From Desulfovibrio sp. 86 (lineage in GTDB: Bacteria; Desulfobacterota; Desulfovibrionia; Desulfovibrionales; Desulfovibrionaceae): 64,000 bases of DNA. The stretch spans positions 2,301,001 through 2,365,000 of the forward strand of contig NZ_LR738849.1 in NCBI RefSeq assembly GCF_902702915.1, written 5' to 3'. Positions 14,516 to 22,877 of this stretch are shown piece after piece. The notes beneath the pieces are model-generated. The model had not been told where the DNA came from, did not search any database, and saw only the letters and a list, made by a program, of their open reading frames with translations. Position 1 is the stretch's first letter, and every line of letters begins with the position of its first letter. Both the position numbers and the translations under genes were made by a program.

Positions 14516-15261
14516 AGGAATATTTCCGTTGCAGGGGCCTGCGGAAAAGTTATGGCCCGCATATTGTTTTGCCCGGCATTGACATAACGCTTGGGCAGGG
14601 CTCCATAACTGCGCTCATCGGAGCCAGCGGTTGCGGGAAAAGCACGTTTCTGCATGTGGTGGCAGGGTTTGTGCCGATGGACGCCGGGGCCATGCTGCTT
14701 GAGGGCGTTCCCTGTGGTGAACCCGGCCCGGACAGGGTTATGGTATTTCAGGACGACGCGTTGTTGCCGTGGCTGAATGTCAGGGAAAACGTGGAATTGG
14801 GCCTGAAAACTGCGGGGATGGCTCATGCGATGCGGCAGGAGCGGGTGCGGCACATCCTGATGCAGGTGGGGCTGGAGCCATGGGCCAATGCCTTGCCTTC
14901 GGAACTTTCGGGAGGGATGCGGCAGCGGGTCGCCTTGGCGCGCACGCTGGTGCTTCGCCCAAAGCTTTTGCTTCTTGACGAACCCTTTGCCGCCCTGGAC
15001 GCCATTACACGCTCGCGCATGCAGCGCCTGCTGGCGGATCTGCAACTCCAGACCGGCGTTACGGTGCTGCTGGTCACGCATGACGTTTCGGAAGCCTGCC
15101 TGCTGGCGGACACCATACACCTTATGGGAACGGGACGCGGCATTGTGGAGACGTGGACGGTTGCAGCGCCCCGCCCGCGAGATCCCGATGATCCTGCCTT
15201 TGCGCAATTGAAGGTGCAAATCCGCGCCAAGCTGGAAGCCCTGGCTGAGCCCGTGTTGTGA
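14512..15261 (+). CDS. ABC transporter ATP-binding protein
   Basis: A 249-residue ATPase of the importer. Walker A GASGCGKST (near 37-45), Q-loop VMVFQDDALLPWLNV, signature LSGGMRQRVALARTL, Walker B LLLLDEPFAALD and the H-loop VTHDVSEACLLAD are all present, typical of the SsuB/TauB/NrtD group. Its ATG overlaps the TGA of the permease gene. It is the last gene before the AT-rich island. Confidence 0.95.
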   Translation: MKEYFRCRGLRKSYGPHIVLPGIDITLGQGSITALIGASGCGKSTFLHVVAGFVPMDAGAMLLEGVPCGEPGPDRVMVFQDDALLPWLNVRENVELGLKTAGMAHAMRQERVRHILMQVGLEPWANALPSELSGGMRQRVALARTLVLRPKLLLLDEPFAALDAITRSRMQRLLADLQLQTGVTVLLVTHDVSEACLLADTIHLMGTGRGIVETWTVAAPRPRDPDDPAFAQLKVQIRAKLEALAEPVL

Positions 15262-15330
15262 ATATGGCAAAATAAGGCTTGTCAGTTGCGTGAAGTGTTA
15301 CAGTGGGTACTTGAGATAATCATCCCCTTT

Positions 15331-15498
15331 TTAGTAGCTCTTCAACGTAGAGCCTATGCCGCCGAACTTGGCTCGCCATTTGTAAAAAGACGCGCGACTC
15401 ATGCCGTGCTCACGACAAAGTTTGGGAACCGGTACCCCATTTTTGGCCTGCTTTAAAATCACCAAGATTTGACTGTCCGTGAATCGTGACTTTTTCAT
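15331..15498 (-). pseudogene. Truncated IS3-family transposase OrfA remnant
   Basis: A 55-codon reading starts MKKSRFTDSQILVILKQAKN, then LCREHGMSRASFYKWRAKFGG and stops soon after. That is the helix-turn-helix half of IS3/IS407-type OrfA; the leucine zipper and all of OrfB are absent. It resembles OrfA of the IS at 20057-22568 (same orientation) but is clearly diverged. It marks the left side of the accessory island. Confidence 0.8.
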
Positions 15499-15611
15499 CG
15501 TAATATCTCAAGATTGCTTATTTTCGGAAATTCTACTTTGAAATATTACTTTTTTCTTGGGGGATTACCATATGATGACTAATCAGTTATTTTATAATAT
15601 ATTGCACTAAC

Positions 15612-15620
15612 TTATCCACA
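15612..15620 (+). promoter_or_regulatory. Single consensus DnaA box
   Basis: TTATCCACA occurs once in the AT-rich leader of the nuclease-helicase gene, with a TATAAT at 15593-15598 just upstream. There is no cluster of boxes, so this is not an origin. Confidence 0.3.
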
Positions 15621-15659
15621 TAAATAATAACTTAAATATTGGCTCTGGGGGATTCACTA

Positions 15660-17642
15660 ATGAAACAGCTAGGTCGCGCCTTTTATCATAGCTCAATTGC
15701 CAATTTTATTAGTGAGTCACGCTCAAACATTTTAGGGGTATTGGCAGAGAATAATCATTTTGAATTATCCCAAGAGCAACGAAGTGCCTGGTTATCTGAG
15801 ATAAATATTTTGCAACAAACCTTACAGCCATATACTGGCTATATTTTATTTGAATATGTAATTCCTAGAATGGGGAAGCGTGCTGACGTTATTCTTCTCA
15901 TTCAGCAAAGCATTTTTGTAGTCGAATTCAAAGTAGGTTCGCATCGTTTTGACAAACAAGCTTCGGATCAGGTGATGGACTACGCACTGGACCTAAAGAA
16001 CTTCCATGCTGGGAGCCAACATCGCAATATTTATCCTATCCTAATTGCCACGAGTGGAACTCCATTGACGGAACAAAAAATTGTTCTTAGCGATGACGGA
16101 GTTTGTGCTACTTTATTTGGTACGCCCGAAAATCTGGCAAATTTACTATGGCGCTGCCTGGCTGAAGAATGTGACGACAGTATAACATGGCAAAAGGTGT
16201 GGGCAAGTTCAGGCTATCATCCCACGCCAACAATAATCGAAGCTGCTCAAGCCCTTTACGCAGGGCACTCGGTAGCAGAGATTAGTCGTAGCGATGCTGG
16301 CACCATCAATCTGTCTCAGACAACAGAGGCAGTCAAAGCTATCATCAACCAAGCAATGACGCAGCATAGAAAATCTATTTGCTTTATTACAGGAGTCCCA
16401 GGAGCTGGAAAAACTCTGGCAGGTTTGAATATTGCGAGTGCCTGGCAAGATCCAAAGAATCAACAACATGCGGTTTTTCTTTCAGGTAATGGCCCCTTGG
16501 TGAGTATTCTACGCGAAGCCTTAAGTCGCGATGAGCACGAAAGAACAAAGCAGTCTGGCCTGAAAAAAAATAAAAAAGAGTGTGAACGAGAAACAGCCGC
16601 CTTCATTCAAAATATTCACCATTTTCGCGATGATATGCTTCGTTCTGATGACGCACCTATTGAACATGTTGTCATATTTGATGAAGCACAGCGCGCCTGG
16701 GATAAAGAACAGGCTAGCTCATTTATGCAACGAAAGCGCGGGCTCGCTGATTTTTCCATTTCAGAACCGGAATTTTTGCTTTCAGCGATGGATCGCCATC
16801 AAGATTGGGCTGTGATCATTTGTCTCATTGGTGGAGGGCAAGAAATAAACACTGGGGAAGGCGGTATAGGGGAATGGTACCAAGCTCTGCGCGACAGATT
16901 TACAGGCTGGCAAGTATGGGTTTCTCCCAACCTAACTGACAGTGAATATCTAATAGGAACATCAGGAAAGACGCTTCTGGATATTAAGAGCAAAGAATGG
17001 AAGCCAGAGTTGCATCTTGCAACGTCGGTGCGATCTTTTCGCTCTGAAAAAGTTTCTACCCTCGTCAAATCGCTTCTGGATATAAACCAAACTGAAGCAC
17101 AGCTCTTACTAAGTGAAATCAGCGATAAATATCCTTTAGTATTAACCCGTGATTTAGATGTGGCTCGCCACTGGCTTAAGAGCCATGCGCGTGGCACAGA
17201 AAGATATGGCATCATAGCCAGTTCTGGGGCTCAACGATTGAGGCCTCTTGGTATAGACGTTAAAAGTAGCATTGATGAAATTAGCTGGTTCCTTAACAAT
17301 AAAGGAGACGTACGGTCTTCTTACTATACGGAGGTGGTTGCCACAGAATTTCACATCCAAGGTCTCGAGTTAGACTGGACAGCCCTTGTGTGGGATGCAG
17401 ACTTACGTTTTATCAATGGCAATTGGGAATACTGGCAGTTTAGAGGTTCTTCTTGGCAAGCGATTCGTAGTGAGCCTAACCAACGGTATTTAAAAAATGC
17501 CTATAGAGTCCTTTTGACACGCGCACGGCAAGGTATGATTATCGTTGTCCCTAAGGGTAATGACAACGATCATACGCGGCCTCTGAAATTCTATGATGAA
17601 ACATACAACTATCTGTCAGAACTAGGTATTAAAGAAATTTAA
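15660..17642 (+). CDS. PD-(D/E)XK nuclease-like / SF1 helicase fusion (DUF2075-like)
   Basis: A 660-residue protein in AT-rich DNA. Residues about 60-110 look like a PD-(D/E)XK nuclease core: D76 in GKRADVILL, then E89-x-K91 in FVVEFKVGS. The second part is an SF1-type helicase: Walker A GVPGAGKT near 245, Walker B VVIFDEAQRAW near 337, motif III region IICLIGGGQEINTGEGGIGE, and motif VI YRVLLTRARQG near 615. This matches the DUF2075/Schlafen-3-like helicase group. The ATG at 15660 has GGGGGA at good spacing; a TTG seven codons earlier is less likely. No membrane segment. A role in phage or plasmid defence is inferred from architecture and island context. Confidence 0.8.
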   Translation: MKQLGRAFYHSSIANFISESRSNILGVLAENNHFELSQEQRSAWLSEINILQQTLQPYTGYILFEYVIPRMGKRADVILLIQQSIFVVEFKVGSHRFDKQASDQVMDYALDLKNFHAGSQHRNIYPILIATSGTPLTEQKIVLSDDGVCATLFGTPENLANLLWRCLAEECDDSITWQKVWASSGYHPTPTIIEAAQALYAGHSVAEISRSDAGTINLSQTTEAVKAIINQAMTQHRKSICFITGVPGAGKTLAGLNIASAWQDPKNQQHAVFLSGNGPLVSILREALSRDEHERTKQSGLKKNKKECERETAAFIQNIHHFRDDMLRSDDAPIEHVVIFDEAQRAWDKEQASSFMQRKRGLADFSISEPEFLLSAMDRHQDWAVIICLIGGGQEINTGEGGIGEWYQALRDRFTGWQVWVSPNLTDSEYLIGTSGKTLLDIKSKEWKPELHLATSVRSFRSEKVSTLVKSLLDINQTEAQLLLSEISDKYPLVLTRDLDVARHWLKSHARGTERYGIIASSGAQRLRPLGIDVKSSIDEISWFLNNKGDVRSSYYTEVVATEFHIQGLELDWTALVWDADLRFINGNWEYWQFRGSSWQAIRSEPNQRYLKNAYRVLLTRARQGMIIVVPKGNDNDHTRPLKFYDETYNYLSELGIKEI

Positions 17643-17781
17643 ATCATTTTATCCAAAATGCCTAACTGCTAGAAGGCAGATGTATTACATGACTAACAAA
17701 ACAGATCGTCTAAGGTCATTTTCTTTCAGTTCCTCGAGAAAAGAAAAGGATTCACTAGCGCTAATGTCGATCCCAAAAATT

Positions 17782-17820
17782 AAATTTCCGGATTCGTCAT
17801 TTCGACGAATCCGGAAATTT
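17782..17820. terminator. Perfect 17-bp inverted repeat
   Basis: AAATTTCCGGATTCGTC and its exact complement are separated by a 5-base loop. There is no T-run directly after it, so it may be a weak terminator for the helicase gene or a recombination/protein site beside the att-like repeat. Confidence 0.55.
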
Positions 17821-17833
17821 CGGAGCGGGACTT
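17821..17833 (+). repeat. Possible attachment-site half, matching tRNA-Leu
   Basis: CGGAGCGGGACTT is identical and in the same orientation to 22799-22811, which covers the T-arm and acceptor 3' side of tRNA-Leu. Direct repeats of a tRNA 3' end are the usual scar of tyrosine-integrase insertion. The match is only 13 bases. Confidence 0.4.
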
Positions 17834-17913
17834 AATTGTGTATTATAACATGCTTAAATTAAACATTATTCTAGATAGTAGCGTTTTAGTTGCCCCCAAA
17901 GTTGCCCCCTTTT

Positions 17914-18049
17914 TTATTCGGTGTGGTACTGGCGAGAGTGTCGCAGATGCTGCACCATCAATTCGCGTAGTGTGTAATCGCGCACTCTGTCCTTCCACCA
18001 TTCAAATCTTGCCGGTGTCGTAATTTGCGGCAAGGTCGAGTAGGCTAAA
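17914..18049 (-). pseudogene. C-terminal fragment of an unrecognised protein
   Basis: A 44-codon open stretch without a plausible start reads ...PARFEWWKDRVRDYTLRELM and ends LRHSRQYHTE. The composition is protein-like rather than random, so it is probably the tail of a decayed element gene. I cannot assign it to a family; the integrase catalytic motif is not visible. Confidence 0.3.
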
Positions 18050-18098
18050 TAATATTAAGTTATCTCATGATGTCATGCAATAATACTGGGAGGAAGAC

Positions 18099-19124
18099 AT
18101 GATACATATTGAAAGAATTCTGCAAAATTGCTCAGAAGACCATTTGCTCAAAGTTTTATTTCAGCATAAAAATGACTATCTTTTCTCTTCCTCATTCTTG
18201 TGGCACTTAAATAATACATTAAGCCTGTTGTTGGAAGTTGACCTTAAAGCATATAATGATTTTATTTTTAATAAATTACCAGCTAAGAACCGTGATTCGT
18301 TTGATATCCATTCTTATATTTCTTCATTATGTGAACTTGCAGTGATGTACTCTTTTTTAAATATCGATGGTAAAATAGAATTTTTTATGTATGAGCCGTG
18401 CCTTAGAGATGATAATAAAAAAAATGTTGAATTTTCAATAAAAATAAATTCAATAATCTACAATGTTGAAGTTAAAGCTCCTAACTTAGAGGCACACTAT
18501 AAAACAATTAGCGATAAAATAGATCAATACGGTGTTGTCATAAGGTTAGATTCTCGAGGGATAAAAAGGCCAAATAATGAAAATGAAATTCCATCTCCGA
18601 CAATGCGAGTTAAAGATTTTTTAGTAGATGCAAATCAAAAATTCCCCCAACGGTCTGAGGGGGGTAGCTTTAATATCCTATTCATAGCTTGGGATGAAAA
18701 CACAGATCAACCTTGCATTGCATTGAAAGAACCAAGACATGGATTATTAGTAAAAAATAGTGAATTTAGAGATGTTGATGGTTCAGCATTTATATTTGAA
18801 AATATAGATTTAATTTTCGTCTCAGATTTGTATAAAAATTTTATTGTTCACATCGCAAGTACTAATAAGCCTCTCCTGGGTTTTATAGCTGACGTTCCAT
18901 ATTTTGATAATGCTCTCAAACGTGTCCATCCCTTTGAGGTGAATCCATTTATACTTTCATTTTCAAGAAATCTTGTTGTTAGTGCCAATTGTGATCTGCA
19001 GGATAGGCATGTACAGGATTCTATATATCAATTGCCAATTGCATTCTCTAGTCAGGATGTGTTTATTGTTGATGAAGATTTTGTCACAAAAAATTGTGCT
19101 GGAGTAAAGTTTTCATTTGGCTAG
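18099..19124 (+). CDS. Unrecognised protein with PD-(D/E)XK-like signature
   Basis: A 341-residue, AT-rich, soluble protein with no close family I can name. Residues 79-126 suggest a restriction-nuclease-like core: E79 in a helix (CELAVMYSFLN), a strand FSIKINSIIY, then E124-x-K126 in NVEVKAPN. Later regions contain beta-rich segments (FNILFIAWDEN, IDLIFVSDLY) and no helicase or membrane motifs. GGGAGGAA four bases before the ATG gives a firm start. A hairpin terminator follows, so it is a single-gene unit. The nuclease reading is inference from a short motif; it could equally be an unrelated fold. Confidence 0.7.
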   Translation: MIHIERILQNCSEDHLLKVLFQHKNDYLFSSSFLWHLNNTLSLLLEVDLKAYNDFIFNKLPAKNRDSFDIHSYISSLCELAVMYSFLNIDGKIEFFMYEPCLRDDNKKNVEFSIKINSIIYNVEVKAPNLEAHYKTISDKIDQYGVVIRLDSRGIKRPNNENEIPSPTMRVKDFLVDANQKFPQRSEGGSFNILFIAWDENTDQPCIALKEPRHGLLVKNSEFRDVDGSAFIFENIDLIFVSDLYKNFIVHIASTNKPLLGFIADVPYFDNALKRVHPFEVNPFILSFSRNLVVSANCDLQDRHVQDSIYQLPIAFSSQDVFIVDEDFVTKNCAGVKFSFG

Positions 19125-19149
19125 CCATTTTTCGTCAATTAAGGCCGCA

Positions 19150-19185
19150 AAAAATCCCGGTCCATGTACTGAGTCGGGATTTTTG
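19150..19185 (+). terminator. Rho-independent terminator after the 341-residue gene
   Basis: Stem AAAAATCCCG/CGGGATTTTT with a 15-base loop, ending in a T-run on the plus strand. The A-run on the other side lets it also serve the convergent small genes. Confidence 0.75.
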
Positions 19186-19213
19186 TTTCAAGCCGTCAGG
19201 TGGCAATTGTGGG

Positions 19214-19450
19214 CTATTTTTTGACTCGCTCAAGCTCATTCTGACATTGTTCCATATAGTCGCCCAAGTTCTTAGCAGCGATGGCAATCATGTTCAGCCC
19301 GGCATAAAGGGAATGCTCGGCGGTAGTGTCGTCAGCGTGCAACCCGTGGTCGAGGAAGGCTTCCCGCAAGCCCGACGCCATGAGCTCAATGGATTCAGAG
19401 AGCATGATTGCCCTGCCGTGGTCATGGGTGGTCAGCGGTGCCTTATTCAT
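19214..19450 (-). CDS. Small hypothetical protein, third of an overlapping trio
   Basis: A 78-residue protein starting MNKAPLTTHDHGRAIMLSES; mostly helical, ending ENL-type charged residues (QCQNELERVKK). Its ATG overlaps the end of the previous small gene by 8 bases and GGGGGA lies just upstream. Not recognised. The tight overlaps and island context suggest a plasmid/phage-type accessory operon. Confidence 0.6.
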   Translation of the reverse strand: MNKAPLTTHDHGRAIMLSESIELMASGLREAFLDHGLHADDTTAEHSLYAGLNMIAIAAKNLGDYMEQCQNELERVKK

Positions 19451-19715
19451 GGTTGGTCCCCCATTCACTGTTGCTAATGACCTCTTCGCAGCGGAGTGCA
19501 AGCCACTGGCAATGCTCCATGATAAGAGCCAGCCCTTGGGCGCAATTCGCATCCACCTCAAATAGAACTTCTTGGCCCTCTGACACATTGAAAAGGCCAG
19601 CCATTGCGCTTTGCAGATGGTGCACGTCCCACAGGGCGACGCAGGTAGCGGCACGAGCTTCGCTGTCAGTTGTGGCCTTGTCCAGCAGTTCAGCGGTCTT
19701 AGATAGCTTACTCAT
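19443..19715 (-). CDS. Small hypothetical protein, paralogue of the preceding gene
   Basis: A 90-residue protein starting MSKLSKTAELLDKATT. The segment ALWDVHHLQSAMAGLF, then SEGQEVLFEVDANCAQGLALIMEHCQWL, aligns with LLWEAHEVLACLSDLF and GRDVEIEMSDSGRQGLGRIL-RHCEHL of the gene upstream. The two are therefore tandem paralogues. It overlaps both neighbours by 8 bases. Function unknown. Confidence 0.65.
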   Translation of the reverse strand: MSKLSKTAELLDKATTDSEARAATCVALWDVHHLQSAMAGLFNVSEGQEVLFEVDANCAQGLALIMEHCQWLALRCEEVISNSEWGTNHE

Positions 19716-19965
19716 GTCTGGCCCTCTTTCCGTCGGCGGGCGCAATGCCGATGGCGTCAATAGTGAGATGCTCGCAGTGCCTGAGGATTCGTCCAAGCCC
19801 CTGGCGTCCGCTGTCGCTCATTTCGATTTCAACGTCACGGCCATTGCTGTATTGGAAAAGGTCACTGAGGCAGGCAAGAACTTCGTGGGCTTCCCATAAA
19901 AGGTCGGAGAGTGTCGGCTGTGCCTCCTCAAACTGGTATCCGGTGAGGGCGGGGTTTTTACTCAT
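19708..19965 (-). CDS. Small hypothetical protein, paralogue of the following gene
   Basis: An 85-residue protein starting MSKNPALTGYQFEEAQPT, with a conserved QGLxxIxxHCxxL pattern shared with the next gene. Its ATG overlaps the stop of a gene fragment upstream (ATGAGTAA), showing that the operon once continued through the IS insertion point. Function unknown. Confidence 0.65.
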   Translation of the reverse strand: MSKNPALTGYQFEEAQPTLSDLLWEAHEVLACLSDLFQYSNGRDVEIEMSDSGRQGLGRILRHCEHLTIDAIGIAPADGKRARHE

Positions 19966-20056
19966 GGCTTTCACTCTCCTGCAGGGTTGCGACGGCTTCG
20001 GGGTCACCACCAGCGGCCATAACCGCCAACTGGCAGAGATGAAATGCTTGCTGTTC
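19958..20056 (-). pseudogene. 3' end of a gene cut by an IS element
   Basis: Reading EQQAFHLCQLAVMAAGGDPE, then AVATLQESESHE and TAA, this is the tail of the first gene of the small-protein operon. The frame is severed at 20057 by the left end of the outer IS. Its 5' part is not found immediately beyond the right IS end. Confidence 0.6.
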
Positions 20057-20061
20057 TGACC

Positions 20062-20931
20062 TTACCCCACTGCGTATACCACTCGTAAGTTAGTGGTTCC
20101 CAATGGGTTGCAGGTTATATTCTTTGCGCGAAATTCTTCCGGTGCCAGCCAGCCCAAGGAACTGTGCGGTCGCCGTTGGTTGTAATCCTGCCGCCAGGCT
20201 TCGACTGTTCTGCGGGCATCGTGCAGGGACAGAAACACGTTCTGATTTAAGCATTCATCCCGAAATTTTCCATTAAAGCTTTCAATGTGCCCATTGTCCG
20301 TGGGCTTCCCCGGACGAGTGAACTCTATCTGTATTCCATGCTCAAAAGCCCAAGCGTCCAAGGCCTTACCGCTAAATTCTGGACCGTTATCAACCTTGAT
20401 ACGTTGCGGTAACCTTCCTTGGAGGCGTAGTTTTTCAAGGACGCGCACAACTCGAGCTCCAGGCAACGACATATCCACTTCGAGCGCCGGGATTGAACGA
20501 TCCCACAGATCAGCAATTGTCAAAATCCGGATGCGTCGCCCTCCCATAAGGGAGTCGCTTACAAAACCCATCGCCCATTGTTCATCTGGGCCATCAGGGC
20601 CAGCCTGGACAATACGGGCATGGCTTGGACGCTTCACGCGTTTGCGAGTACGCAACGAAAGGTTTTCTTCCTGGTAAATCCTTTCTGTCCGCTTGTGGTT
20701 CTGCACCAACCCTTCCCGGCGCAATAACGCATGTAGGCGCGGAGAACCGAAACGCCGCCGATCTTCTGCCAGTTCCAGCATCCGCGTCCGTAAAAGAAGA
20801 TCACGGTCTTCAGATGGTGATCGCCTGGCTGAACAGCGGTTAAACTGAATCACTCGGCAAGCCCGCCGCTCTGAGTAGCCATGATCCGCTTGAATGTGCT
20901 GCACGGCTGCCCTATTAGCTGCGGGCTTCAA
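20062..20931 (-). pseudogene. IS3-family transposase OrfB with a mutated catalytic Asp
   Basis: The 289-residue OrfB has the integrase core with KVDNGPEFSGKALDAWA (second Asp) and DNGHIESFNGKFRDECLN (Glu). The usual first catalytic Asp lies in WxMDFVSD; here it is WAMGFVSD, a GAT-to-GGT change, so the enzyme should be inactive. It starts TTG, and OrfA upstream carries A-AAA-AAC, the classic -1 frameshift site for an OrfAB fusion. The reading frame itself is open. Confidence 0.8.
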
Positions 20932-21092
20932 AAGTTTTTTGAGATCACGTCCTTCAGGACGACAATATCAAGTGCCTGCTCGCCTACAAGCCTTTTCAGC
21001 CGTGCGTTTTCTTCCTCTAACTGGCGTAACCGCTTTGCGTCAGAGATGTTCATTCCACCGAACTTGCTTCGCCATTTGTAAAAGGTCGCATC
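20928..21092 (-). pseudogene. 3' part of the outer IS OrfA, severed by the inner IS
   Basis: Reads TFYKWRSKFGGMNISDAKRL, then RQLEEENARLKRLVGEQAL and ends DVISKNF. This is the zipper half of the same OrfA whose helix-turn-helix half lies at 22400-22506. The two pieces join in frame when the inner IS and one GCATC copy are removed. Confidence 0.85.
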
Positions 21093-21150
21093 TGGAGTAG
21101 CCCCCATTTCGACCGGACACCCCTCTAACTAAGGAGGAGGTGCTGGAACT

Positions 21151-21549
21151 ATGTCTGGAACTAGTGCTAAAACAAGTTCAACGGTGGAGATAGTAAACAT
21201 AACGCCCCGTCGCCGTTGGTCTGTCGGCGAGAAAGTTCGCCTGATAGAGGCCAGCATGGCCCCAGGTCAGTCGGTTTCTCTGGTGGCACGAACGTATGGC
21301 GTTGCTCCCAATTTGCTTTACCGCTGGAGAAAGCAGATGAGTGAAGGCGGCAAAACAGCCATTGAAGCCAATGACGAGGTTGTCAGCGTTGCCGAAGTAA
21401 AGGCCCTGAAAAAGCGAATCCGTCAGTTGGAACGCGTCCTTGGCAACAAAACACTGGAAGTGGAAATCCTCAAAGAAGCTGTTCGCATTGGCCGCGAAAA
21501 AAAACTTATCTCGCGGCTGCCCTTGTCCGGCGTGGAGGATTTCCAGTGA
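21151..21549 (+). CDS. IS3-family (IS2-like) transposase OrfA
   Basis: A 132-residue protein with a helix-turn-helix (RRRWSVGEKVRLIEASMAPG, then VSLVARTYGVAPNLLYRWRKQM) and a leucine-zipper region (VKALKKRIRQLERVLGNKTL). An A8 tract at 21497-21504 allows a -1 slip that leads straight into the orfB frame. AAGGAGGAGG upstream sets translation. Confidence 0.93.
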   Translation: MSGTSAKTSSTVEIVNITPRRRWSVGEKVRLIEASMAPGQSVSLVARTYGVAPNLLYRWRKQMSEGGKTAIEANDEVVSVAEVKALKKRIRQLERVLGNKTLEVEILKEAVRIGREKKLISRLPLSGVEDFQ

Positions 21550-22385
21550 AACGGGTCACAGACGCCCTGGCGGTGTCCCGATCCAACACCTATGAACGTA
21601 GCCGCAGCCCACGGCCTCGCCCGGAACGATACAGCAAAGCAGAAGACGCATTCCTTCTACCGCTGATCGTCGAACTTTTGGGCGGACGCCAGACCTACGG
21701 CTATCGGCGTATCCAGCGACTGCTTAATCGGCAACTGGTTGCCGATGGGCGCACTCCGGTCAACCATAAACGTGTGTACAGGATAATGAGGCAAAATAAC
21801 CTGTTGCTGGCACGGTTTACTGGCAGCCAACCTGACAAGGCACACACGGGCAAGGTTTCCACACTACAAAGAAATCAGCGTTGGTGCTCTGACGGGTTTG
21901 AGATTGCCTGCGACAACGGTGAGCGGGTGCGCGTCATTTTTGCCCTGGATACTTGCGACCGAGAAGTTATGGCCTATGCCGCCACCACTGGCGGGTACAG
22001 TGCTGACATGGCGCAAAGCGTCATGCTGGCATGCGTTGAAAAGCGGTTTGGGGATGTCAAAACATTGCAGCCAGTTGAATGGCTCTCCGACAACGGCTCC
22101 TGCTACACGGCAAGAGAAACAGTAACGTTTGCCGCCGCCTTGGGCATCGTCAGCAAGTTTACTCCAGTTCGCAGCCCTCAAAGTAACGGTATGGCTGAAG
22201 CTCTCGTCAAAACATTCAAAAGGGATTACGTCTTCTGCAATGATCGACCGGATGCCGAAACTGTGATGGCGCTACTCCCTTGCTGGTTTGAAGACTATAA
22301 TGAAAATGCCCCGCACAAGGCCCTGCGGATGCTCTCGCCTCGTGAGTTTATCCGTTCATTGCAAATCTTGGAGTGTCCGGTTTAG
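21546..22385 (+). CDS. IS3-family (IS2-like) transposase OrfB
   Basis: A 279-residue DDE integrase-core protein. N-terminal part GGRQTYGYRRIQRLLNRQL, catalytic Asp in RWCSDGFEIACDNGE, Asp in VEWLSDNGSCYTARE and Glu in SNGMAEALVKTFKRDYV. The GTG start overlaps the orfA stop, but the working product is probably the frameshifted OrfAB fusion. Confidence 0.93.
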   Translation: MKRVTDALAVSRSNTYERSRSPRPRPERYSKAEDAFLLPLIVELLGGRQTYGYRRIQRLLNRQLVADGRTPVNHKRVYRIMRQNNLLLARFTGSQPDKAHTGKVSTLQRNQRWCSDGFEIACDNGERVRVIFALDTCDREVMAYAATTGGYSADMAQSVMLACVEKRFGDVKTLQPVEWLSDNGSCYTARETVTFAAALGIVSKFTPVRSPQSNGMAEALVKTFKRDYVFCNDRPDAETVMALLPCWFEDYNENAPHKALRMLSPREFIRSLQILECPV

Positions 22386-22399
22386 CAGGGGCAACTCCA

Positions 22400-22506
22400 G
22401 CATCCGAGATGCCATGCTGACGGCATAGATCAACGACACGAACTCCAGCCTCAGCCTGCCGCAAAATCCCAATAATTTGCTCTTCGGTGAATCTGCTACG
22501 TTTCAT
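22400..22506 (-). pseudogene. 5' part of the outer IS OrfA
   Basis: Starts MKRSRFTEEQIIGILRQAEA, then VDLCRQHGISDA and is cut by the inner IS at 22399. Together with 20928-21092 it made a normal OrfA. Confidence 0.85.
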
Positions 22507-22730
22507 TCTTGTGCTCCTATGTCAGGAACACTAACTTTTCAATGGCATACTTTTAGGGGGGAGGGTCACTCTGTCGAACTTGTCCGAAGCACAAAGAAAA
22601 AGGTCAAGGCCAAGTAAGGCGCATTGGGTGAACTCTTGATTGCGGGCTAGCATCAGGTTCATGCCAAACTCTCAGCGGAGTAGCGCAGGAGTGACGAGAA
22701 ATAGTGGCATAATAGTGGCACAAAACATGT

Positions 22731-22784
22731 AACTAAAAAAACTTGCATCCTCAAAAAAAATGAGTATGCAAGTTTTTTTTAGTT
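22731..22784. terminator. Strong hairpin terminator next to tRNA-Leu
   Basis: AACTAAAAAAACTTGCAT and ATGCAAGTTTTTTTTAGTT form a long stem with A/T-runs on both sides, so it can terminate in either direction. It serves the tRNA-Leu transcript on the minus strand. Confidence 0.8.
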
Positions 22785-22791
22785 ATTTCAG

Positions 22792-22877
22792 TGGTACCCG
22801 GAGCGGGACTTGAACCCGCACAGCCTCGCGGCCCAGGGATTTTAAGTCCCTTGTGTCTACCATTCCACCATCCGGGC
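22792..22877 (-). tRNA. tRNA-Leu (anticodon TAA), CCA encoded
   Basis: Acceptor GCCCGGA/TCCGGGT, D-arm GGTGGAATGGTAGACAC, anticodon stem AGGGA/TCCCT with loop CTTAAAA (TAA), a long variable arm GGGCCGCGAGGCTGT and T-arm GCGGG-TTCAAGT-CCCGC. The discriminator A and CCA are encoded. The AT-rich island lies on its 3' side. Confidence 0.95.
22799..22811 (+). repeat. tRNA-Leu copy of the 13-base att-like repeat
   Basis: Identical to 17821-17833 and in the same direction. It falls in the T-arm and acceptor, a common integrase target. Confidence 0.4.

Follow-up and report, generated by a model that had tools for sequence, protein, structure and literature searches.

We identified an intact open reading frame of 341 codons (ATG to TAG) at positions 18099-19124 on the forward strand of the window, the whole 64,000-nucleotide stretch of Desulfovibrio sp. 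86 DNA analyzed here. Given the local base composition, a frame this long would stay free of stops by chance with a probability of about 2e-10, and the ORF is a genuine gene. It has 31.7% GC, compared with about 60% for the flanks and the genome, and is present in one copy in its own 3.46-Mb genome. The ribosome-binding site GGGAGGAAG precedes the gene and a hairpin with a T run follows it (-13.8 kcal/mol, z -3.15; 0 of 200 shuffles equally stable). The signals proposed by the first-pass annotation, which was made from the sequence alone, were thus recovered. The features of the locus are:

15249-22791 (no strand): insertion, as a whole absent from the close relative G409 (blastn against eight same-genus loci); the 18099-19124 gene is in its tRNA-proximal part, about 17821-22811
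17782-17820 (reverse): 17-bp perfect hairpin that matches the terminator adjoining tRNA-Leu in the empty site; the insertion has displaced it (repeat search, fold, alignment with the empty site)
17821-17833 (forward): left copy of the 13-bp direct repeat CGGAGCGGGACTT, a duplicated tRNA-Leu 3' end and putative att site (exact match; alignment)
18088-18096 (forward): ribosome-binding site GGGAGGAAG, closely 5' of the ATG (read from the sequence)
18099-19124 (forward): gene for a PD-(D/E)XK family protein (P0001), 341 aa (ORF; about 40 relatives; AF2 model)
19147-19187 (forward): intrinsic terminator, hairpin then T run, closely 3' of the stop (RNA fold)
22792-22877 (reverse): tRNA-Leu(UAA), integration target (ARAGORN; the same gene adjoins the empty site)
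22799-22811 (forward): right copy of CGGAGCGGGACTT, within tRNA-Leu (exact match)

The island setting proposed earlier was confirmed by comparison with eight same-genus loci. The gene is part of a 7.5-kb insertion (15249-22791) at the 3' end of tRNA-Leu that has no counterpart in genome G409. There, flanks 91-93% identical to the window enclose just 299 bp, the interval between an ABC-transporter gene and tRNA-Leu(UAA). The window contains exactly two copies of the 13-mer CGGAGCGGGACTT, at 17821 and 22799 (0.00 expected), so that directly repeated copies of this part of the tRNA-Leu 3' end flank the gene. The displaced hairpin adjoins the left copy. The simplest reading is that two separate inserts lie at tRNA-Leu. 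The one nearer the tRNA (17821-22811) would carry two IS3-type elements and small ORFs besides the 18099-19124 gene, and the one further away would carry a gene at 15639-17642 (forward strand) for a Schlafen group 3 helicase protein, the PADLOC candidate defence PDC-S41 (E 1.7e-283). We rejected the idea that this helicase and the 18099-19124 gene form one operon, because the two are separated by the tRNA terminator hairpin and the tRNA-end repeat.

No integrase was seen in the insert within the window. Two IS3-type gene pairs (20062-22506) take up the half of the insert nearest the tRNA, and these elements may have replaced its integrase. A short ORF beside the left repeat (17843-18001, reverse strand) has an end, GATLGATKTLLSRIMFNLSML, that recalls an integrase C-terminus and is possibly a remnant of one. 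In genome G415, an apparent integrase N-terminus (judged by eye) lies beside the same tRNA-Leu, and DNA related to window positions 19138-19421 also adjoins that tRNA (L171). Three overlapping small ORFs of 146, 117 and 100 aa (19214-20010, reverse strand) are without family matches; two of them resemble paralogues by eye.

The protein has no recognizable family, as had been noted from the sequence. Profiles of Pfam, NCBIfam, PADLOC and PHROGs and the sequences of the PDB gave no family match, and no PADLOC 2.0.0 defence model was matched. The sole listing from the profile libraries was a PHROG with unknown function (E 0.048). Using tblastn, we identified one distant relative, on a Peribacillus plasmid (24% identity, E 1e-6), and a profile of these two sequences identified a third at E 9e-19 in G647, a genome of the same bacterial family. 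A DNA motif made by hand from the three proteins, over K-D-[FY]-[LI]..A..K-F-gap-L.I.W, picked out 14 stretches of viral contigs and at least 118 of genomes; a second version of the motif added five. About 38 true relatives were confirmed by profile at E<1e-12, and the family totals about 40. Automatic peptide-pattern scans of the genomes and viral contigs returned no relatives, and searches of phages and plasmids returned the Peribacillus plasmid only. Weak matches in four genomes (G146, G398, G439 and G441; E 4e-4 to 0.009) were short and partial and were judged spurious.

The relatives are patchily spread over roughly ten phyla. Hosts are found in the Bacillota, Pseudomonadota, Bacteroidota, Spirochaetota, Planctomycetota, Cyanobacteriota, Bdellovibrionota, Cloacimonadota and methanogenic archaea, and the copy is single in all 24 genomes checked. 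The protein of the window groups with those of a Clostridia MAG and Methanosarcinales (40-42% identity, SH-aLRT 95) and not with the same-family G647 protein, whose partners are from Methanolobus and Clostridium. Horizontal transfer is likely, given that these two proteins fall in different groups. No recurrent match to Pfam, PADLOC, NCBIfam or PHROGs was found among the relatives (with PADLOC, one of 28 gave a weak E2 match, 0.0014), and a search of the open-licence literature found no description of the family. It appears to be uncatalogued in the domain and defence libraries tested. The Peribacillus relative (L003; NZ_CP068052.1) is a longer protein of 477 aa whose C-terminus has a SEC-C-like zinc motif; its gene is close to those for a serine protease and a SIR2-family protein.

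Conservation was scored over 249 columns of the alignment of the relatives. The columns of the sampling motif are partly conserved by construction and were excluded from the argument. Elsewhere, the three least variable columns are E79 (32/32), E124 (35/35) and K126 (35/35), followed closely by P110, E111, E99 and P100. The first-pass annotation had named the three invariant residues as a nuclease site and asked for their conservation in homologues, which was found; the NVEVKAPN strand that it pointed to is residues 122-129, with E79, E124 and K126 located as claimed. Overlooked was E111, which is E in 33 and D in one of 34 relatives. It ends a motif that is N-P-E in the family and N-V-E in the protein of the window (V for P at position 110). 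The codons concerned are:

18333-18335 (forward): E79, acidic residue of the helix preceding the sheet (32/32 invariant; helix 70-87 in the model)
18429-18431 (forward): E111, predicted second catalytic acid, in N-V-E (family N-P-E), just before strand 112-116 (33 E, 1 D of 34)
18468-18476 (forward): E124-V125-K126, (D/E)XK half-motif at the end of strand 119-126 (E124 and K126 35/35)

A bipartite motif (an acid, then (D/E)-x-K, plus the helix acid) is conserved in essentially all relatives, and E-E-E-K is kept in 32 of the 32 that span all four positions. The order E..N-P-E..x12..E-V-K fits the bipartite (P)D...(D/E)XK signature by which the PD-(D/E)XK superfamily is defined (PMC1189080). Judging from the alignment, E111 in N-P/V-E is therefore the residue that supplies the 'PD' half-motif and completes the site of E79, E124 and K126, a choice of residues that was right as far as it went.

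The AF2 model of the protein (28 sequences; pLDDT 75, pTM 0.78) has a confident core and low-confidence segments after residue 250. The model of a Microcoleus relative (L071; 34 sequences; pLDDT 94.4, pTM 0.93) has the same order of elements. In both models, a helix carrying the first Glu precedes three strands; E111 lies at the second of these and E-x-K at the end of the third, and helices and a fourth strand follow. The element order of an alpha-beta-beta-beta-alpha-beta core is thus found in two predictions. In these models, E79, E111, E124 and K126 sit on canonical PD-(D/E)XK core elements, which would fit their clustering in space.

Foldseek gave no match that passed E 0.001. With VIA-align, the top match was XisH (2okf; Z 7.5, 3.2 A over 126/129 residues, 10% identity). 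Other structural neighbors include a CdiA-CT nuclease domain, PaqCI, BsmI, McrC, Cdn1/Can2, Hachiman HamA, NgoMIV, NotI, SfsA and EndoMS; like XisH, all are enzymes that we take to be PD-(D/E)XK members. By our own count, about 46 of the 50 structure matches listed are enzymes of this superfamily. The other four are to acetyl-CoA carboxylase and were judged to reflect a common arrangement. No match reached Z 8, and values below 8 are common by chance; because of this, the superfamily argument rests jointly on the match list, the topology and the invariant residues. Taken from the models, the restriction-endonuclease-like fold first suggested by motif spacing is well supported, with E79 in the helix before the sheet, E124-x-K126 ending strand 3 and mostly PD-(D/E)XK neighbors. 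The protein almost certainly belongs to the PD-(D/E)XK superfamily, of which it shares the predicted core topology and the placement of the helix acid, the strand-2 acid and the strand-3 E-x-K. It differs in matching none of the models for this superfamily in Pfam, NCBIfam, PADLOC and PHROGs; in addition, it has a helical N-terminal part of its own, and a helix with the motif K-D-F-L..A..K-F follows the core. With its relatives, it forms a new family within a long-known superfamily.

XisH (fdxN element excision controlling factor; 2okf, 2inb) is the nearest solved fold by Z. However, XisH is a bare core of 130 residues, and the link is one of fold similarity alone (Z 7.5, 10% identity), with no Pfam sequence match. 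McrC and the Type IIS/IIP enzymes (PaqCI, BsmI, NotI) share the nuclease core (Z 5-6.7). Unlike these, the protein is the product of a single gene, for which no McrB-type partner was recognized, and no fused methyltransferase or recognition domain was recognized in it. Hachiman HamA, Can2/Card1 and other defence nucleases are similar in core fold (Z 5-6), and several relatives share with them a defence neighborhood, but a HamB-type partner is generally absent and no CARF domain was detected in the protein. PDC-S41 (15639-17642), a PADLOC candidate single-gene defence, shares the tRNA-Leu insertion; it is a Schlafen group 3 helicase, is not homologous, and lies outside the direct repeats that bound the 18099-19124 gene.

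Several relatives have genes of defence type nearby. One follows genes for a CBASS-type 4TM effector, a cyclase and E2 (L165), another follows Z1, PD-(D/E)XK-like, AIPR and Vsr genes (L167), and a third is near AbiTii (L161); these locus assignments are our own, as the PADLOC tallies name no protein. In G647, DUF4365 is near the relative and AbiE-like genes were recognized by eye. A Treponema relative (L163, 1-12174) forms a tight operon with SLFN_AlbA_2, an AAA_30/UvrD_C_2 helicase (1245 aa) and an SNF2 helicase; the set looks DISARM-like by eye and may be a defence system of several genes. One copy follows Tn7-like TnsD/TniQ (L153), and four viral contigs have a copy among phage genes, presumably tail genes. 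Many relatives are among ordinary genes (e.g., L148, L150, L159). A near versus far comparison of neighbors with PADLOC gave no clean enrichment, as distant genes also included defence genes; islands span the 20-kb regions compared, and the listing does not name the matched protein.

No methyltransferase adjoins the gene in the window, which distinguishes it from Type II restriction-modification. A scan for [DNS]PP[YFW]/PPCQ motifs beside the relatives gave three matches, and we took none of them for a methyltransferase. The Treponema operon may be an exception to the missing partner, as it holds a truncated gene that looks methyltransferase-like by eye. In view of this, host DNA would be spared through a requirement for modified DNA, through activation by infection, or through structure-specific cutting.

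The best explanation, to which we assign a probability of roughly 0.6, is that the gene encodes a standalone, metal-dependent nuclease of the PD-(D/E)XK fold that is carried as mobile defence cargo. We infer the nuclease activity, the DNA substrate, the defence role and the trigger. The predicted core (helix with E79, strand, strand with E111, strand with E124-x-K126, helix, helix, strand) would hold one or two divalent metals at E79, E111, E124 and K126 and cleave a phosphodiester bond, with DNA the most likely substrate. As cargo of an element bounded by tRNA-Leu, the nuclease would most likely guard both this element and its host against phages or competing DNA. It may cut invading DNA that bears a feature missing from host DNA, or damage DNA after activation by infection. 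The solo effector suggested by the first-pass annotation is compatible, at the level of sequence, with the isolation of the gene and with the context of some relatives, and a role in defence is reasonably probable. Within defence, modification-dependent or infection-activated cutting is favored.

A specific form of this explanation is a Type IV-like enzyme that cuts only modified phage DNA and so needs no methyltransferase. The small motif scan, with no plausible methyltransferase beside the relatives except in one operon, and the McrC nuclease domains among the nearest structures point this way. We consider this form rather unlikely, however, as no known base-reader domain was recognized and the SEC-C motif is present in just one scanned relative. 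A nuclease for recombination or repair of the mobile element, like a resolvase or an excision factor, would instead have no part in defence. The top structural match to the excision-controlling-factor family, the Hjc and RecU resolvases lower in the Foldseek list, and the copies in prophages, beside TnsD/TniQ and in the tRNA-bounded element are all consistent with such a role. It is nevertheless improbable, because the host elements are mutually unrelated, many copies are without mobile-element neighbors, and the likeness to XisH does not go beyond the bare core of the superfamily (126 residues).

Can2, Cdn1 and arenavirus endonucleases among the structural neighbors also suggest an enzyme that cuts RNA or single strands in abortive infection, in the manner of Card1/Can2 or cap-snatching endonucleases. 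We give this little weight, as restriction enzymes are just as near and we detected neither a CARF nor any other ligand-sensing domain. The V of N-V-E could mean that the protein descends from a nuclease but is inactive or structural in this genome, which is very unlikely with all four predicted catalytic residues retained and an intact ORF that has a ribosome site and a terminator.

The standalone defence nuclease, our preferred reading, might tentatively be extended to an undescribed form of single-gene defence. In this form, a PD-(D/E)XK nuclease that phages, transposons and tRNA-integrating elements have spread over bacteria and archaea would tell self from foreign DNA without a modification partner or a recognizable sensor domain. 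As the family spans about ten phyla and goes unseen by the domain and defence libraries tested here, it offers ready candidates for anti-phage screens, and active-site mutants can be designed at once from its invariant residues. If the nuclease is defensive and acts alone, how host DNA escapes becomes testable with these sequences. The archaeal and clostridial relatives point to exchange across domains. About 5 kb from the Methanolobus relative, we identified a Gabija-like pair, a UvrD-type helicase and a GajA match (L151:15229-18917).
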